IMG/VR virus record: IMGVR_UViG_3300043468_000751
Coordinates: 1-29,797 of that record
Origin: a virus
Length of the DNA stretch: 29,797 bases
Reading direction: 5' to 3' (one strand)
Made by a program: the position numbers and the translations under genes. The notes under the pieces were generated by a model. It saw nothing but the letters and a program-made list of their open reading frames with translations, ran no database searches and was not told the DNA's origin. Shown here one piece after another: positions 8,223 to 14,216 of this stretch (position 1 is its first letter; each line of letters begins with the position of its first letter).

Positions 8223-8754
8223 GCGGTGGACTGTCGTAAAAGGGTACGAGGGCCGCTACGAGGTCAGCGATCAGGGGCGAGTGCGGTCTGTTGCGCGCAT
8301 GGCTACCGTTCGCCGCGGGGCCAAAAGCCACCTTCGCCCGATCGCGCCGAAGGTGATCGCCCCGACGCGACACCCCGGCGGGTACGCCAAATATTTGCTC
8401 TACGACGGCGCGGGCTATGAGAATCGCTACGGCCACGAGCTTGTTCTGACTAACTTTGTCGGGCCGAGGCCCTTCGGGGCGCAAGCGTGCCACAACAACG
8501 GGATCAAGACAGACAACCGGCTTGTGAATCTCCGGTGGGACACGCCGGCGGCCAACCAAGAGGACCGCGAGAGCCACGGCACCGGCCGCCGCGGAAAGCC
8601 CCACCCGATTAAGACGCTGACGAGACGAGAGGTCCGTATCATCCGGGCGCTGGCGGGGGCCATGAGCCACGGCGACATCGGGCGACTTATCGGCCGCCCA
8701 AGGACAACAGTTTCCGATATCGTGCGCGGCCGGACGTGGAAAAACTTTGCCTAA
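8128..8754 (+). CDS. NUMOD4-HNH homing endonuclease
   Basis: The product has a NUMOD4 module (NERWTVVKGYEGRYEVSDQG, about residues 31-50), an HNH_3-type nuclease core (GHELVLTNF, ACHNNGIKTDNRLVNLRW with His122, Asn123) and a C-terminal helix-turn-helix (TRREVRIIRALAGAMSHGDI, then TTVSDIVRGRTW) for DNA recognition. Such free-standing endonucleases cut the homologous site in related phages and spread by repair. I placed the start at the ATG at 8128 because no ATG, GTG or TTG is available closer to the NUMOD4 module; the gene then overlaps the polymerase by 95 bases. Its C-terminus (KNFA) lies in a 34-bp repeat shared with the end of the methyltransferase gene. Confidence 0.82.
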   Translation: MKSAASCLNRPDGRKDCQSLSKDTGPSDTANERWTVVKGYEGRYEVSDQGRVRSVARMATVRRGAKSHLRPIAPKVIAPTRHPGGYAKYLLYDGAGYENRYGHELVLTNFVGPRPFGAQACHNNGIKTDNRLVNLRWDTPAANQEDRESHGTGRRGKPHPIKTLTRREVRIIRALAGAMSHGDIGRLIGRPRTTVSDIVRGRTWKNFA

Positions 8755-8779
8755 GCAGTTGTGAAAGGCACAACATGAA
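8746..8779 (+). repeat. 34-bp perfect direct repeat, copy 1
   Basis: This copy covers the last two codons and stop of the HNH gene, regulatory site R6 and the start of the methyltransferase gene. It is identical over 34 bases to 9966-9999, exactly 1220 bases away. The repeats bracket the methyltransferase gene so that recombination between them would delete it cleanly and leave the primase-helicase gene with an intact site and start. Confidence 0.9.
8758..8774 (+). promoter_or_regulatory. recurrent regulatory site R6, abutting the methyltransferase start
   Basis: GTTGTGAAAGGCACAAC has a perfect outer dyad GTTGT/ACAAC, a compensated change from the GTTGC/GCAAC of other sites, and abuts the ATG at 8775. 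It also contains GAAAGG at Shine-Dalgarno distance, so a protein bound to DNA here, or the RNA dyad itself, could influence both transcription and translation. Confidence 0.65.
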
Positions 8780-9974
8780 TCCGTTATCGGAAATAATCGA
8801 AGGCGACAGCCGGCATATTCTCGCCACGCTCGCAGAGTCCAGCATCGACTCCGTCGTCACCGACCCGCCTTACGCCCTCGTCAGCATCACGAAGCGATTT
8901 GGTTCCGAGGACGCGGCGCCGGCGAAGGGTGACGTGTACGCGCGGGCTGCAGCCGGCTTCATGGGAAAGAAGTGGGACACGGGCGAGACGGCCTTTGACC
9001 CGCTGTTCTGGCGTGAAGTGCTGCGCGTGTTGAAACCGGGCGGCCACTTGCTGGCGTTCGGTGGGACGCGAAGCTATCACCGGCTCGCTGTGGCCGTGGA
9101 GGACGCGGGGTTTGAGATCCGCGACCAGATCGGGTGGCTCTACGGCTCGGGGTTTCCGAAGTCCCACAACCAAGGCAACGGCTGGGGCACGGCGCTAAAG
9201 CCCGCGTGGGAGCCGATCGTCCTCGCGCGCAAGCCGCTGATCGGCACCGTCGCGGCGAACGTGTCGGCGCACGGGACGGGGGCCATCAACATCGACGGGT
9301 GCCGCGTGCCGACCGATGAAAACTTGAACGGCGGGGCCTATTCTGCGGAGCGTAAGCCGAGCAACAGTGAATGGGTGAAGAACGGCGGCACCATCCACAA
9401 CAGCACCGGAAAGGACTATGTGCAACCAGCCGGCCGCTGGCCCGCGAACGTGATCCACGACGGCAGCCAGGAAGTGCTGGCGGCGTTTCCCGAAGCGCCC
9501 GGCCAGATGGCAAAGGCGGCCGAGGGCGGCGATCGGCGCAAGGACCAGAACGTCTACGGTGCGATGACGCGCGGGTCCAACGGGGCCGAGCCACGCGAGG
9601 ACAGCGGCTCCGCCGCCCGGTTCTTCTACTGCGCCAAGGCCAGCAAGTCAGACCGCAACGAGGGGTGCGAGCACCTGCCGAAGAAGCCGTCCGGCATGGT
9701 GTCGGAGACCAGTGGCCAGCACATAACCCGCCGCGACGGCGGCGCTCCCGGCCCGACCGCCAACCACCACCCGACGGTCAAGCCGACGGCGTTGATGCGG
9801 TATCTCTGCCGCCTCGTCACCCCGAAGGGCGGCACGGTCCTCGACCCGTTCATGGGGTCCGGCAGCACAGGGAAGGCCGCAGCACTCGAAGGCTTCAACT
9901 TCATCGGCATCGAACGCGAAGCCGAATATGCAGCGATCGCCCGCGCCCGGTTGGGCCTCGATCCGTTTGCCTAA
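8775..9974 (+). CDS. orphan DNA adenine/cytosine-N4 methyltransferase (N6_N4_Mtase)
   Basis: The 399-residue protein is a beta-type amino-methyltransferase: catalytic DPPY at 30-33 near the N-terminus (VVTDPPYALV), a WDTGETAFDPLFWREVLRVL segment with LKPGG, a long central region likely to read the target sequence, and the SAM-binding block HPTVKPTALM and DPFMGSGSTG (357-366). DPPY with this motif order fits N6-adenine or N4-cytosine modification. No matching restriction gene is seen, so it likely protects or regulates phage DNA. The start at 8775 follows GAAAGG. The gene is bracketed by a 34-bp direct repeat, suggesting acquisition as a cassette. Confidence 0.9.
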   Translation: MNPLSEIIEGDSRHILATLAESSIDSVVTDPPYALVSITKRFGSEDAAPAKGDVYARAAAGFMGKKWDTGETAFDPLFWREVLRVLKPGGHLLAFGGTRSYHRLAVAVEDAGFEIRDQIGWLYGSGFPKSHNQGNGWGTALKPAWEPIVLARKPLIGTVAANVSAHGTGAINIDGCRVPTDENLNGGAYSAERKPSNSEWVKNGGTIHNSTGKDYVQPAGRWPANVIHDGSQEVLAAFPEAPGQMAKAAEGGDRRKDQNVYGAMTRGSNGAEPREDSGSAARFFYCAKASKSDRNEGCEHLPKKPSGMVSETSGQHITRRDGGAPGPTANHHPTVKPTALMRYLCRLVTPKGGTVLDPFMGSGSTGKAAALEGFNFIGIEREAEYAAIARARLGLDPFA

Positions 9975-9999
9975 GCAGTTGTGAAAGGCACAACATGAA
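9966..9999 (+). repeat. 34-bp perfect direct repeat, copy 2
   Basis: This copy covers the last two codons and stop of the methyltransferase gene, regulatory site R7 and the start of the primase-helicase gene. It is identical to 8746-8779; flanking bases diverge on both sides (C versus G before, T versus C after), so the boundaries are sharp. Confidence 0.9.
9978..9994 (+). promoter_or_regulatory. recurrent regulatory site R7, abutting the primase-helicase start
   Basis: The site GTTGTGAAAGGCACAAC is identical to R6 and again abuts an ATG (9995) with GAAAGG at Shine-Dalgarno distance. Identical control of the methyltransferase and replication genes is implied if the site is functional. Confidence 0.65.
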
Positions 10000-11935
10000 C
10001 ACCCAGCGCCAACCCCAAGCGCCCGACACCCTCACGAGCGCAATCGCCCTCGGGAAAGCCGGCTACAACGTCTTCCCCCTCATCGAGAACGGGAAGATCC
10101 CGGCCGTGGGGGCGTGGCAGCAGCGGGCCACGAGCGACGAGGCGGAAATCCGCAAGCTCTGGACCGAGCACGATCCTGTCCTCAACGTCACAAGGGTCAA
10201 GCCGTACAACATCGGCATCCACACGAAAGACCTGTTGGTCCTCGACGTCGACGTGCGCGAGGGCAAGCGGGGCATGGAGACGCTGGCTGAGCTTGACGTG
10301 ATGGAGGGCGTGCCGGCCACGTTCACGGTAAGGACGGCGAGCGGCGGCCTCCACATGTACTTCCGCCCCAAGGCCCCCGTCCGCAACAGCGCCAGCACAA
10401 GGTTCGGGCCGGGCGTGGATAGCCGTGGCGACGGTGGGTACGTCGTCGGGCCGGGCAGCACGATCGACGGCGTACCGTACACGGTCCACAAGGCCGTCGT
10501 CGTGGCCGAGGCGCCGGAGTGGATGGAGCGCCGTGCCGGCCAGCCGATGGCCGAGAACGAGCGCGGCAAGCAGGTCGTCGAAATCCTCGACACCCAGCCC
10601 GCCATGCAGCGGGCCGTCGAATACCTCAAGTCCCTCGACGCAGCGACCCGCCCCGGCACGTTCATCGCCGCCTGCCGCTGCAAGGACTACGGCCTGAGCG
10701 AGCTGACGGTCCTCGAGATCATGGCCGAGCACTGGAACGGCCCCGTCCACCCCGGCATGGACTTCGAGGTCCTGGCGATCAAGGTGGCAAATGCATTCCG
10801 GTACGGCAAGAAGCCGATCGGCGAGGCGAGCGCGCAGGCGGATTTCGAAAAGGCGGAAGCGGACCCCTTCGAGCCCAAGCGCGAGCCGCCGAAGACCCGC
10901 GGCGAACTGTTGTGGTGGGATGACGACGACAACGCCCCCGAGCCCGACCCCCTCATCGAGGGAATCCTCGACAAGGGATCCTGCACGATGATCTACGGCA
11001 AGCCGAACGTCGGAAAGACGTTCGTGGCGTACTCGATCGCCAGGCACATCGCGGCCGGCGTGCCGTTCGCGGGGCGCGAGGTCGAGCAAGGCCCCGTCCT
11101 CTATATCCAGTGCGAAGGCCACAGCGGCGTCTCCCGCCGGCGCAAGGCCCTCCGGATGTACTTCAAGGACAAGAACATCCCCTTCGTCGTCGTGAAGGCC
11201 AGCGTCAACCTCGTCAAGTCTGCCGAGGACCGCGAATGGCTGGGTGCCAAGGTCCGCGAAGTGACGGAGCGATACGGCACGGCACCCGCCGCAGTCGTCA
11301 TCGACACGTGGTCGGCCGCGGCGCCGGGGATGGACGAGAACGCGGCGGGCGATGTGTCTGCGGCCCTGAGTGCCATGAAGCGGTACACGTGCGACCAGGG
11401 AATCGCCCTCATCATCGTTCACCACGAGGGGAAGAACGCGAACGGCGGGCCGCGCGGGTCAAGCGCCTTTGTCGGCAACGTCGATACCGTGATCCACGTC
11501 CGGGATGGAATGATCGTCAGCGACAAGGCGCGAGAGGCGGCCAAGCTCGAGCCCGTGCCATTCGCTCTGGAAGTCCTGACGGTGGGCCGGACGGTCAAGG
11601 GGCGCCCGGTCACGTCGTGCGTGGCGCGGGTCTACACCCCCGCCGAAGCCGACTTTGGGCCGCAGGTTCCGATGACCGACTTTGAGAAAACAGCCTTCGA
11701 TCGCCTCATGGAATTAGAGGCAAACAGGGAAGAATATGCAGGTGTTTCATATTCCGAGTGGGAAGATGCGGTCGTTTTCTTTGTCCGCGGCGATGTCCGC
11801 GCGGACACGGCAAAACGCAACCTTAGGAGATCGCGGACAAATCTCGCGGACAAAGGCTATGTGCGGAATGATAATAAAAACCAATGGTTTACGATTCCGC
11901 GGACAAACGCGGACAAAGTGCCCGGACACGAGTGA
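9995..11935 (+). CDS. primase-polymerase / RepA-type helicase fusion
   Basis: The 646-residue protein has an N-terminal bifunctional primase-polymerase domain: LVLDVDV (Asp84, Asp86), TASGGLHMYF (His120) and GVDSRGDGGYVVGPGS. A linker leads to an AAA_25/RepA-like helicase with Walker A GKPNVGKT (335-342), Walker B AAVVIDTWS (Asp437) and ALIIVHHEGK. The C-terminal 90 residues look like a winged helix. It should prime and unwind phage DNA at replication start. It starts within the 34-bp repeat copy 2. The last 150 coding bases contain most of the GCGGACA repeats described at 11782-11994 and are less GC-rich, so the gene appears to carry its own origin. Confidence 0.9.
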   Translation: MNTQRQPQAPDTLTSAIALGKAGYNVFPLIENGKIPAVGAWQQRATSDEAEIRKLWTEHDPVLNVTRVKPYNIGIHTKDLLVLDVDVREGKRGMETLAELDVMEGVPATFTVRTASGGLHMYFRPKAPVRNSASTRFGPGVDSRGDGGYVVGPGSTIDGVPYTVHKAVVVAEAPEWMERRAGQPMAENERGKQVVEILDTQPAMQRAVEYLKSLDAATRPGTFIAACRCKDYGLSELTVLEIMAEHWNGPVHPGMDFEVLAIKVANAFRYGKKPIGEASAQADFEKAEADPFEPKREPPKTRGELLWWDDDDNAPEPDPLIEGILDKGSCTMIYGKPNVGKTFVAYSIARHIAAGVPFAGREVEQGPVLYIQCEGHSGVSRRRKALRMYFKDKNIPFVVVKASVNLVKSAEDREWLGAKVREVTERYGTAPAAVVIDTWSAAAPGMDENAAGDVSAALSAMKRYTCDQGIALIIVHHEGKNANGGPRGSSAFVGNVDTVIHVRDGMIVSDKAREAAKLEPVPFALEVLTVGRTVKGRPVTSCVARVYTPAEADFGPQVPMTDFEKTAFDRLMELEANREEYAGVSYSEWEDAVVFFVRGDVRADTAKRNLRRSRTNLADKGYVRNDNKNQWFTIPRTNADKVPGHE

Positions 11936-11994
11936 CACCTGCCGCGGACACACCCCTTTCTCTAAGGGGTGTCCGCTGTCCGCGGTCCGTCCGC
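11782..11994. repeat. iteron-like repeat cluster, candidate replication origin
   Basis: Ten exact heptamers lie in about 200 bases. GCGGACA starts at 11801, 11833, 11846, 11899, 11909 and 11944; TGTCCGC (its complement) starts at 11782, 11794, 11970 and 11977. The extended form CGCGGACAAA occurs five times. 11794-11807 is a perfect 14-bp palindrome. Near matches lie at 11922 and 11988. A+T-rich stretches (11871-11880 and 12001-12029) are beside it. Iterons at the end of a primase-helicase gene next to A+T-rich DNA are a common origin arrangement; function is inferred. Confidence 0.7.
11944..11976 (+). terminator. hairpin after the primase-helicase gene
   Basis: ACACCCCTT (11950-11958) and AAGGGGTGT (11964-11972) form a perfect 9-bp stem with a five-base loop. 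The stem extends on both sides through GCGGACA/TGTCCGC after a two-base bulge. It starts nine bases after the stop codon. No T-run follows, so it may be an origin hairpin as much as a terminator. Confidence 0.45.
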
Positions 11995-12013
11995 AGTCCG
12001 AATTAATTACCGG

Positions 12014-12087
12014 ATGGAATAATTATCGGTTTCCTGATTTTCCCCGGCCGACAGACGACATGGAATTATTATCGGCGTCCTGATTTT
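12014..12087. repeat. 28-bp imperfect direct repeats in an A+T-rich gap
   Basis: 12014-12041 and 12060-12087 are identical at 25 of 28 positions; each begins ATGGAAT, contains ATTATCGG and ends TCCTGATTTT, with an 18-base gap between them. They lie between the repeat cluster and the large terminator, in a gene-free gap (11936-12245) that otherwise holds only the two hairpins. I see no gene here. They may be part of the origin (unwinding element or binding sites). Confidence 0.6.
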
Positions 12088-12176
12088 GGCGCGCGTCGGT
12101 TGTCGGGGTTTGGGTGGGCTGGGGCGCGTCGTGCCGTTGTCGCCTTGGCCGTCGTCGGGCTAGGACGATTGCAAAG

Positions 12177-12228
12177 ACAGACCCGCCGACCCCTAGGCTG
12201 GGTAGGGGCTAGGGGTCGGCGGGTCTGT
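12177..12228. terminator. bidirectional terminator between convergent operons
   Basis: A perfect 20-bp inverted repeat (12177-12196 with 12209-12228, arms around GACCCGCCGACCCCTAG) encloses a 12-base loop. It lies between the rightward replication operon, ending 11935, and the leftward accessory operon, ending 12246. The symmetrical stem could stop transcription from both sides. No long T-run flanks it, so termination may rely on the very strong stem. Confidence 0.7.
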
Positions 12229-12245
12229 GTGGCCTGGTGGACGCG

Positions 12246-12560
12246 CTAGGCGGTCAAGCGGTCCCACAACGAGGCAGCCTGCCTGTCGCCCATGCGCGGG
12301 TTGCCGTAGCCGTCGGCCATGCTCTGCCGGTAGCGTATGTAAGCGTACAGTTGTGCCGTTTCGCCTAGCAGTCCTGTCCGCTGCGCCTGGTCCCACCTTT
12401 CGACCATGTACGTGCACATTTTCGCGGGATCCGGCCTTGGACTCGCCAAGTGCGCGGCCACTTTGGACAGGCAATATGCCCATGCGGCCGGATGAGCTGT
12501 GTACTCGACTTTTTCGGCCCATAGCGGGTCGGGTTTCTGCTTTTTCACTCGCGCGCCCAT
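12246..12560 (-). CDS. hypothetical protein, 104 aa
   Basis: Unrecognised. The protein begins MGARVKKQKPDPLWAEKVEY and is helical and rich in aromatic residues (HPAAWAYCLSKVAAHL, MCTYMVERWDQAQRTGLLGE, YAYIRYRQSMADG). It has no membrane segment. The ATG at 12560 is preceded by GAAAGGAAGAACC, nearly the same leader as the gene at 12606-12815. It is the last gene of the minus-strand accessory operon, ending just before the 20-bp-stem terminator. Confidence 0.65.
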   Translation of the reverse strand: MGARVKKQKPDPLWAEKVEYTAHPAAWAYCLSKVAAHLASPRPDPAKMCTYMVERWDQAQRTGLLGETAQLYAYIRYRQSMADGYGNPRMGDRQAASLWDRLTA

Positions 12561-13297: not shown

Positions 13298-13402
13298 CTA
13301 GACAACGTGAATCGCGATGTAGACCGCGGTAACGAAGACCAGCAAACCCGCAAGGCCTGCGACGAATGCCAGAGCTTCTGCGATGGTTCGAAGGGCTTGC
13401 AT
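13298..13402 (-). CDS. 34-residue single-span membrane peptide
   Basis: The ATG at 13402 shares its A with the stop of the upstream gene (TAATG) and opens a 34-codon frame: MQALRTIAEALAFVAGLAGL then LVFVTAVYIAIHVV. After a short amphipathic start, residues 11-33 form one uninterrupted hydrophobic helix. Such small membrane peptides are typical phage accessory products (superinfection exclusion, lysis modulation, host membrane effects); which one is unknown. Coupled position in the operon is the main evidence that it is expressed. Confidence 0.6.
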   Translation of the reverse strand: MQALRTIAEALAFVAGLAGLLVFVTAVYIAIHVV

Positions 13403-14031
13403 TAGCGCACCCAATACGTGACGCCGTCGAAATCGACGGACGTGTAGTCCATTTGCAATTCGCGGGCGGCTTGGTCCCAGTCGATGCACGTGCAAGGCCA
13501 CGCCAGATTGGCGGGGATCATTCCGCAATCTTCGGCGAGCTCTTGCGCGTATTCCTTGAAGTAGGAATAGCGGATCAGCGTTTCGCCGTGCTCCCAATCG
13601 GCCGCGTATCCGCTCGCCTCGTCGGCGAGTTTCAGTAGCGCGGCATGTTCCGCGGCGTCTTCCGGCGAGTCGAATTGATCCGCGCCGTGCAGGGGCTCGA
13701 TCCAATAGTGGTAGCTTCCGATTGTCTCGCCGTATCCGGCCGCATTCTCGGCTATTGCGCGCATGCGTATCGCGGATGCCGCAAGCGTTTCGCATTCCAA
13801 GGCCGACTCCGGCAAATCGCCGAGCGATTCGGCTGCGCGGTCCATTTCTTCCGCCAGGTAGTCGCGCGCGTCTTCCCAAGTCTGAAACCGCGCGGGCTCG
13901 CTGTCGGGCATGTAACCGGGCATGTTCCAGCCGGCTACGTACAGCATGCGCGTTTCTGTCAATTCTTCGAGCCGCGCGATGACGTCGCGTGAGTCGATAA
14001 CGTCGTCTGTATTGCTGATCTCGTTTGCCAT
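13402..14031 (-). CDS. very acidic hypothetical protein, 209 aa
   Basis: The translation has about 44 Asp/Glu against two Lys and about a dozen Arg, a net charge near -30. Segments are TDDVIDSRDVIARLEELTET, FQTWEDARDYLAEEMDRAAE, an alanine/glutamate-rich middle and IPANLAWPCTCIDWDQAARE ending DGVTYWVR. I recognise it as a conserved phage protein type without assigned function. The charge would suit a DNA-mimic such as an antirestriction protein, but there is no specific motif. The ATG at 14031 follows GGAAACACAA, identical to the leader of the next upstream gene. Confidence 0.75.
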   Translation of the reverse strand: MANEISNTDDVIDSRDVIARLEELTETRMLYVAGWNMPGYMPDSEPARFQTWEDARDYLAEEMDRAAESLGDLPESALECETLAASAIRMRAIAENAAGYGETIGSYHYWIEPLHGADQFDSPEDAAEHAALLKLADEASGYAADWEHGETLIRYSYFKEYAQELAEDCGMIPANLAWPCTCIDWDQAARELQMDYTSVDFDGVTYWVR

Positions 14032-14051
14032 TTGTGTTTCCATTTCCCTTG

Positions 14052-14216
14052 TCAGATTGCGTGAAATGTCCAAAGCCATCCGTTGAGCCAGATGTATTCG
14101 TTCGTCTCGAGATCGAATGCGCGGAATCGGCCGTCCATGTCCGTCCCCGGTTGCACGGCTATCTCGAGTGAGTAAAGCGCGCATTCAGCGCAGTACGTTT
14201 CCGAAAACCCTTCCAT
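14052..14216 (-). CDS. hypothetical protein, 54 aa
   Basis: The product reads MEGFSETYCAECALYSLEIA, then MDGRFRAFDLETNEYIWLNG and WLWTFHAI. A Cys-x2-Cys pair (Cys9, Cys12) and an aromatic end are the only features. It is the first gene of the leftward accessory operon. The ATG at 14216 follows GGAAACACAA; an ATG at 14243 in frame lies inside a hairpin and lacks this leader. Function unknown. Confidence 0.6.
   Translation of the reverse strand: MEGFSETYCAECALYSLEIAVQPGTDMDGRFRAFDLETNEYIWLNGWLWTFHAI

Follow-up and report, generated by a model that had tools for sequence, protein, structure and literature searches.

A candidate iteron origin with a conserved hairpin at the 3' end of a RepA-like initiator-helicase gene in phages and prophages

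Results

We identified a probable iteron-type replication origin at positions 11782-12087 of a phage DNA stretch (the window); its own initiator-helicase appears to recognise it through a winged helix. Based on comparison of sequences, we place the probability of this reading at about 0.85. A sequence-only reading of the window had proposed an iteron origin carried in the gene for its own initiator, and the proposal is supported: relatives keep the layout, and the residues of the recognition helix vary with the iteron. The same layout occurs at well over 100 further loci in phages and prophages. The window is the whole of an IMG/VR record (29,797 bases), which may be a fragment. It encodes a terminase, a head-tail connector and tail genes. 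The phage that carries the module is podovirus-like, and the module also occurs in prophages of proteobacteria. Coordinates of the features are given in Table 1.

Table 1. Features of the initiator gene and the candidate origin in the window
Feature	Position	Strand	Details
Initiator gene	9995..11935	+	646 aa; Pfam, RSF1010 RepA match, AlphaFold
Prim-Pol domain	residues 20-176 of initiator		Pfam
RepA-like AAA_25 helicase	residues 306-482 of initiator		Pfam; RSF1010 RepA match
C-terminal winged helix	residues ~560-635 of initiator		AlphaFold, confident
Codons of predicted recognition helix (residues 603-619)	11801..11851	+	contain iterons; AlphaFold
Iteron GCGGACA	11782..11788	-	exact match
Iteron GCGGACA	11794..11800	-	exact match; left half of 14-bp palindrome
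Iteron GCGGACA	11801..11807	+	exact match; right half of 14-bp palindrome
Iteron GCGGACA	11833..11839	+	exact match
Iteron GCGGACA	11846..11852	+	exact match
A+T-rich stretch between two iteron groups	11866..11895	.	second candidate melting site
Iteron GCGGACA	11899..11905	+	exact match
Iteron GCGGACA	11909..11915	+	exact match
Eleventh, degenerate iteron CCGGACA	11922..11928	+	CGGACA at 11923
Conserved hairpin	11944..11976	.	GCGGACA-CACCCCTT-TCTCT-AAGGGGTG-TCCGC; outer arms inverted iterons
Hairpin outer arms (inverted iterons)	11944; 11970	+; -
Iteron GCGGACA, directly after hairpin	11977..11983	-	exact match
A+T-rich segment with two 28-bp repeats	12000..12087	.	candidate melting site

Repeat array in the window

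All ten exact copies of GCGGACA or TGTCCGC that had been described were found within 202 bp (11782-11983), together with the five copies in the longer form CGCGGACAAA (11780 on the minus strand, 11832, 11845, 11898 and 11908), the perfect 14-bp palindrome TGTCCGCGCGGACA and the hairpin, whose 9-bp stem (ACACCCCTT/AAGGGGTGT) is also perfect. The judgement that this cluster is far above chance held as well. In 100 dinucleotide shuffles of the window, any 7-mer reached at most 5 copies per 202 bp, compared with the 10 observed. The remaining 29.6 kb of the window contain seven further copies of GCGGACA. Seven copies in the cluster are coding and three non-coding; the coding ones lie on both strands and, on the plus strand, in two codon phases, and protein sequence alone therefore cannot explain the array. 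One rival explanation is chance or codon-driven repetition (R-T-N, A-D-K) in GC-rich coding DNA, in keeping with a GC-rich genome and with the seven copies that lie in codons. However, it is refuted by the shuffles, the use of both strands and two codon phases, and the non-coding copies, and among relatives the array is coding in some, non-coding in others and beyond the stop codon in many. We rejected this explanation and give it virtually no credence. Compared to its relatives, the window array extends deeper into the gene and reaches the codons for the predicted recognition helix.

The A+T-rich flank proposed as part of the origin was borne out in part. GC content falls to 0.30-0.35 at 12000-12040, and the pair of 28-bp repeats at 12014-12041 and 12060-12087 match at 25 of 28 positions (89%). 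In 63 distinct loci of the family, GC dips by 9 and 11 points immediately outside the array, and the repeats of the window fall in the downstream mean dip. What relatives share at this place is the dip; the 28-bp repeats are described for the window. GC skew, suggested earlier as a check, gave no independent support for an origin and was rejected as evidence because skew changes where genes switch strand.

The initiator-helicase

The 646-residue protein to which the sequence-only reading referred is the product of the ORF that starts with ATG at 9995. Its helicase core matches RSF1010 RepA in both sequence (1g8y, phmmer E 2e-4) and fold (1g8y, Foldseek TMt 0.67). The predicted recognition helix has a pLDDT around 90 in the AlphaFold model, and a Foldseek search limited to the winged helix returned nothing beyond weak matches to winged helices in general. 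An AAA_25 domain was present in 52/52 relatives examined. The primase module differed among them, with Prim-Pol in 15, PriCT_2 in 16 and Toprim in a few.

Relatives keep the layout with different iterons

The window DNA had no match in the phage collection, short words included, and a scan of viral contigs with the single protein found no locus besides that of the window; relatives were therefore reached via the protein and via a DNA pattern. An initial alignment (A1) proved too divergent to serve for pattern searches. Ten phage or plasmid relatives were found by protein alone, five of which had different arrays at the same place; no array was found in the other five, distant phage or plasmid relatives. 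For example, the iteron was GCGTGACA in Rhizobium phages 16-3 and RHph_X2_25, TGCGGAAG in a Caenibius plasmid, and TGGGACA and GGCTGGAA in two phages. In the array-bearing relatives, the far end of the array carried a GC hairpin, whose loop was commonly TTTA, TATA or a similar sequence; the outer arms of this hairpin changed along with the iterons. Further iterons included CGAAGAA, GGTACA, GGAACA, GGCACA and others, while the layout remained constant: in the 63 distinct loci, iterons lay within -80 to +60 of the hairpin, with forward and reverse copies following a regular order. The sequence-only reading had asked whether relatives conserve the amino acids and lose the heptamers. We found the opposite, since at 20-30% protein identity the array and hairpin are still at the same place.

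We also searched the window protein against genomes from the phylum of Desulfovibrio and from the classes to which Mameliella and Cupriavidus belong. This search yielded 18 strong helicase relatives with enough 3' flank; six loci (L279-L284) that a DNA search had turned up were for that reason not counted. A 7-mer present in at least six copies was detected in 10/18 of these relatives versus 6/356 control windows (Fisher 2e-11), and a TWWA-loop hairpin in 7/18 versus 0/356 (2e-10). Two loci with weak Toprim matches (L018 and L008) kept the iteron-capped hairpin with a different stem.

The hairpin is tied to the 3' end of the helicase gene

A broad iteron pattern mixed real arrays with coding repeats, and a hairpin pattern therefore took its place. 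DNA patterns were built from the window hairpin (GGACACACCCC-TTTCTCTAA-GGGGTGTCC), and no gene information was used. The loop of the window hairpin, TTTCTCTAA between CCCC and GGGG, is longer than the usual TWWA. The hairpin pattern was found at 94 loci in genomes (one genome per species) and 109 in viral contigs, two sets that overlap in that some contigs are in both. Most genome loci were from Alphaproteobacteria; others were from Desulfovibrio, Syntrophales and Gammaproteobacteria. The 3' end of a RepA-like helicase gene adjoined the hairpin at 67/94 genome loci and 74/109 viral loci, compared with a helicase beside 0/18 loci of a control pattern. In the genome set, the hairpin lay between -152 and +224 bp relative to the stop codon, most often at 80, and an element whose position ranges from 152 bp ahead of the stop codon to 224 bp past it points to selection on DNA rather than on codons. 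An asymmetry of the arms (2 nt, CM before CCCC) was mostly on the gene-sense 5' arm; it was reversed in up to 25 loci and is thus no strict rule. The comparison shows the iterons and the hairpin to be DNA elements that are conserved at the 3' end of the genes of this helicase family.

An autoregulatory operator or copy-control array, at which the winged helix limits expression or replication while replication starts elsewhere, would be expected on the 5' side of the gene, but none of the 141 helicase-linked hairpins was located there. In addition, the array sits at the gene's 3' end and is followed by a gene on the opposite strand, leaving no obvious downstream gene to control. Although one promoter-like match occurs inside the array, some arrays are near other genes, and iteron binding alone would give the same co-variation between iteron and protein as an origin (see below), we regard an operator as improbable.

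The hairpin folds stably (DNA z -4.4) downstream of stop codons and is followed by a short T run in relatives of phage 16-3, features that would also suit an RNA element, i.e., a terminator of transcription or a structure in the 3' UTR of the helicase mRNA. On the other hand, no terminator-like site was detected in 11600-12400, no Rfam family was matched, and what comes after the 3' arm in the family is a further TGTCC iteron instead of a T run. Such an element would also leave the mixed-strand iterons, their concerted change and the helix co-variation unexplained, which makes it distinctly improbable. Co-variation of paired arm positions, which iteron change explains, was dropped as proof of structure because the iterons change together.

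Co-variation of the iteron and the recognition helix

A core-only pattern, CMCCCCTWWAGGGGTGT, in which TGT is fixed on the 3' arm and ACA left free on the 5' arm, recovered helicase-linked hairpins with GGTACA, GTAACA, GGAACA, GGCACA, GTGACA, GCAACA, GCCACA and other iterons. Most of these visibly end in ACA, and they occur in both hairpin arms. We then examined associations between iterons and 290 alignment columns in 115 proteins whose C termini were less than 85% alike. The best column was residue 611 for iteron position 1 and residue 608 for position 3, both located in the recognition helix. At residue 611, R/K occurred in 28/48 proteins with C-first iterons versus 8/58 with G-first iterons, and Q/N in 28/58 with G-first versus 1/48 with C-first; that is, R/K goes with CGGACA and Q/N with GGGACA. 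At residue 608, K/R was present in 88/99 proteins with G at iteron position 3 versus 1/16 otherwise. On the helicase tree, we counted 12 to 19 changes of iteron type. Supported branches provided only 5-6 independent pairs. Almost all of them agreed with the expectation, but so few pairs put significance out of reach: after correction for descent, the association was not significant (median p 0.125-0.5). The recognition helix thus appears to co-vary with the iteron, a strong association rather than proof.

On balance, these loci probably represent a widespread and previously undescribed class of phage and prophage replicons, in which a RepA-fold initiator-helicase is combined with interchangeable primase modules and a 3'-end origin composed of an iteron array and an iteron-capped hairpin (iteron-CM-CCCC-TWWA-GGGG-inverted iteron). 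Since all iterons of the array, including those in both arms, would change with residues 608 and 611, the family would form readable specificity (incompatibility) groups.

Hairpin loci without the helicase

Approximately 30% of the hairpin loci had no recognised RepA-like helicase beside them. Some were near a contig end or were chance-like poly-C matches, and most of those inspected had other genes there, in some cases with full arrays. These hairpins may mark additional sites of a replicon that has its helicase elsewhere, or may be decoys. A partition, recombination or packaging site that lies beside the helicase gene by coincidence would agree with the few arrays found near integrase or terminase genes and with the use of repeat arrays by partition systems as well. 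Nevertheless, the consistent neighbour is the helicase, even as the primase type varies, and the protein that co-varies is the helicase itself; we find a coincidence of this kind very improbable indeed.

Discussion

Proposed mechanism

For the window phage, we infer binding, melting, loading, priming and use as an origin by analogy, because the steps of recognition, self-loading, melting and priming are known from SaPI Rep, SCCmec Cch2, PICI, P4 alpha, RSF1010 and pRN1 (PMC7581432, PMC6092414, PMC4234260). The initiator would bind the GCGGACA iterons via its C-terminal winged helix, and a RepA-type hexamer would assemble on the array (self-loading) and open the neighbouring A+T-rich DNA. The Prim-Pol domain or a host primase would then start synthesis. 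We also infer a function for the hairpin, which may be a paired initiator-binding site formed by the two inverted iterons in its outer arms, or may take the form of a cruciform or a single-strand hairpin and assist in loading of the helicase or primase. By analogy with ssiA/ssiB of RSF1010, it might serve as a priming site; however, the hairpin is kept when the primase type changes, and a role with the helicase or winged helix would fit better.

Comparison with known replicons

In our best reading, the proposed origin would work like SaPI/PICI, P4 and SCCmec replicons, but with a RecA-fold helicase and an iteron-capped hairpin. The SaPI/PICI rep-ori (PMC6092414; PMC7581432, which cites Ubeda 2007) has its origin immediately 3' of the initiator gene, as do the window and its relatives, with multiple short iterons and an A+T-rich stretch; the C-terminal domain of the helicase recognises the origin, and the primase is separate or fused. 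In contrast, the window has a RecA-fold, RepA-type (AAA_25) helicase, and its family an iteron-capped hairpin with a CMCCCC-TWWA-GGGG core. SaPI/PICI are satellites that need a helper phage for virions, whereas the window encodes its own terminase, connector and tail proteins. In SaPI/PICI, two iteron sets flank the A+T-rich region; the window has such a stretch between its iteron groups (11866-11895), but in the family GC dips outside the array. In SCCmec, the initiator helicase Cch2 and its C-terminal domain also bind direct repeats downstream of the operon, with inverted repeats nearby, but the iterons are three in number and 5 nt long and the primase is different (CCPol-MP) (PMC7581432).

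Additional examples combine similar domains. According to PMC4234260, phage P4 alpha carries primase, helicase and winged helix in one protein that binds origin repeats, unwinds and primes. Its primase is of the Toprim type, found in a few relatives of the window protein, whereas the N terminus of the window protein is Prim-Pol; the window also differs in its RepA-type helicase and the hairpin in the origin. RSF1010 oriV, as covered in the same source, has a RepA-type hexameric helicase, iterons and stem-loops (ssiA/ssiB) where the primase starts. It uses three proteins (RepA, RepB' and RepC), whereas in the window primase, helicase and the predicted iteron-binding domain form one chain and the hairpin arms are iterons. 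The pRN1 protein ORF904 contains Prim-Pol, helicase and a C-terminal winged helix, with an essential stem-loop just downstream; however, the helicase is SF3, unlike the AAA_25/RecA fold of the window, and the stem-loop is ~100 nt, with no iterons (PMC4234260). PrimQH and related mobile-element primases share primase, RepA-type helicase and winged helix, and origin recognition has been suggested for winged helices fused to primase/helicase domains, the RepA type included; we propose an origin sequence for the window family, and none is given for these families in the available portion of the source (PMC5862659). Finally, in lambda-type origins that lie in the initiator gene, the initiator has no helicase and recruits that of the host, whereas the window initiator carries its own.

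Novelty and significance

In the searchable full-text literature, we found neither iteron origins for RepA-like phage helicases nor the hairpin; most subscription papers were outside this search, and novelty is therefore claimed with reserve. To our knowledge, the origins of most phages are unknown. If the proposed reading is correct, phages and prophages that carry a RepA-like helicase could have their origin read from the DNA that follows the helicase gene, a few recognition-helix residues would help predict the iteron, and replicons competing for the same initiator would be predicted. It also raises the question of why the TWWA-loop hairpin persists through changes of primase type and iteron.

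Other features of the window and related loci

Some hairpins were beside genes other than the helicase: an integrase in L147 (near 4905), a terminase in L246 (near 2572), a REP initiator in L433 (near 3012) and a DUF6362 gene in L380 (near 8485), with many iterons in some. Short RepA-type helicases with a different C-terminal helix-turn-helix were observed in L307, L312, L329, L337 and L340, with downstream arrays (GCGACA, GGGACA, GGAAAC, GTAAACA and GCGCAAC) and without the TWWA hairpin. The control scan also revealed, in a phage intergenic region without a RepA-like helicase, several long GC palindromes whose loops are TTTA or TCTAAAGA (L262, 10069-10620; same in L268, L270 and L277).

In the window, a DNA methyltransferase gene (N6_N4_Mtase, 8736-9974) directly precedes the initiator gene, and Rhizobium phages 16-3 and RHph_X2_25 likewise have methyltransferase genes upstream of the initiator. 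A family A DNA polymerase fragment at 7272-8754 matches positions 993-1230 of the 1445 of phrog_17. An ORF with NUMOD4/HNH endonuclease similarity overlaps the end of this fragment and looks like a homing endonuclease in or beside a split polymerase gene. The protein encoded at 13402-14184 on the minus strand is strongly similar to phrog_25535 and weakly to anti-restriction proteins (phrog_2059). Just beyond the A+T-rich repeats, a perfect 20-bp inverted repeat with a 12-nt loop and without a T run (12177-12228) adjoins the 3' end of a minus-strand ORF and is possibly a bidirectional terminator.
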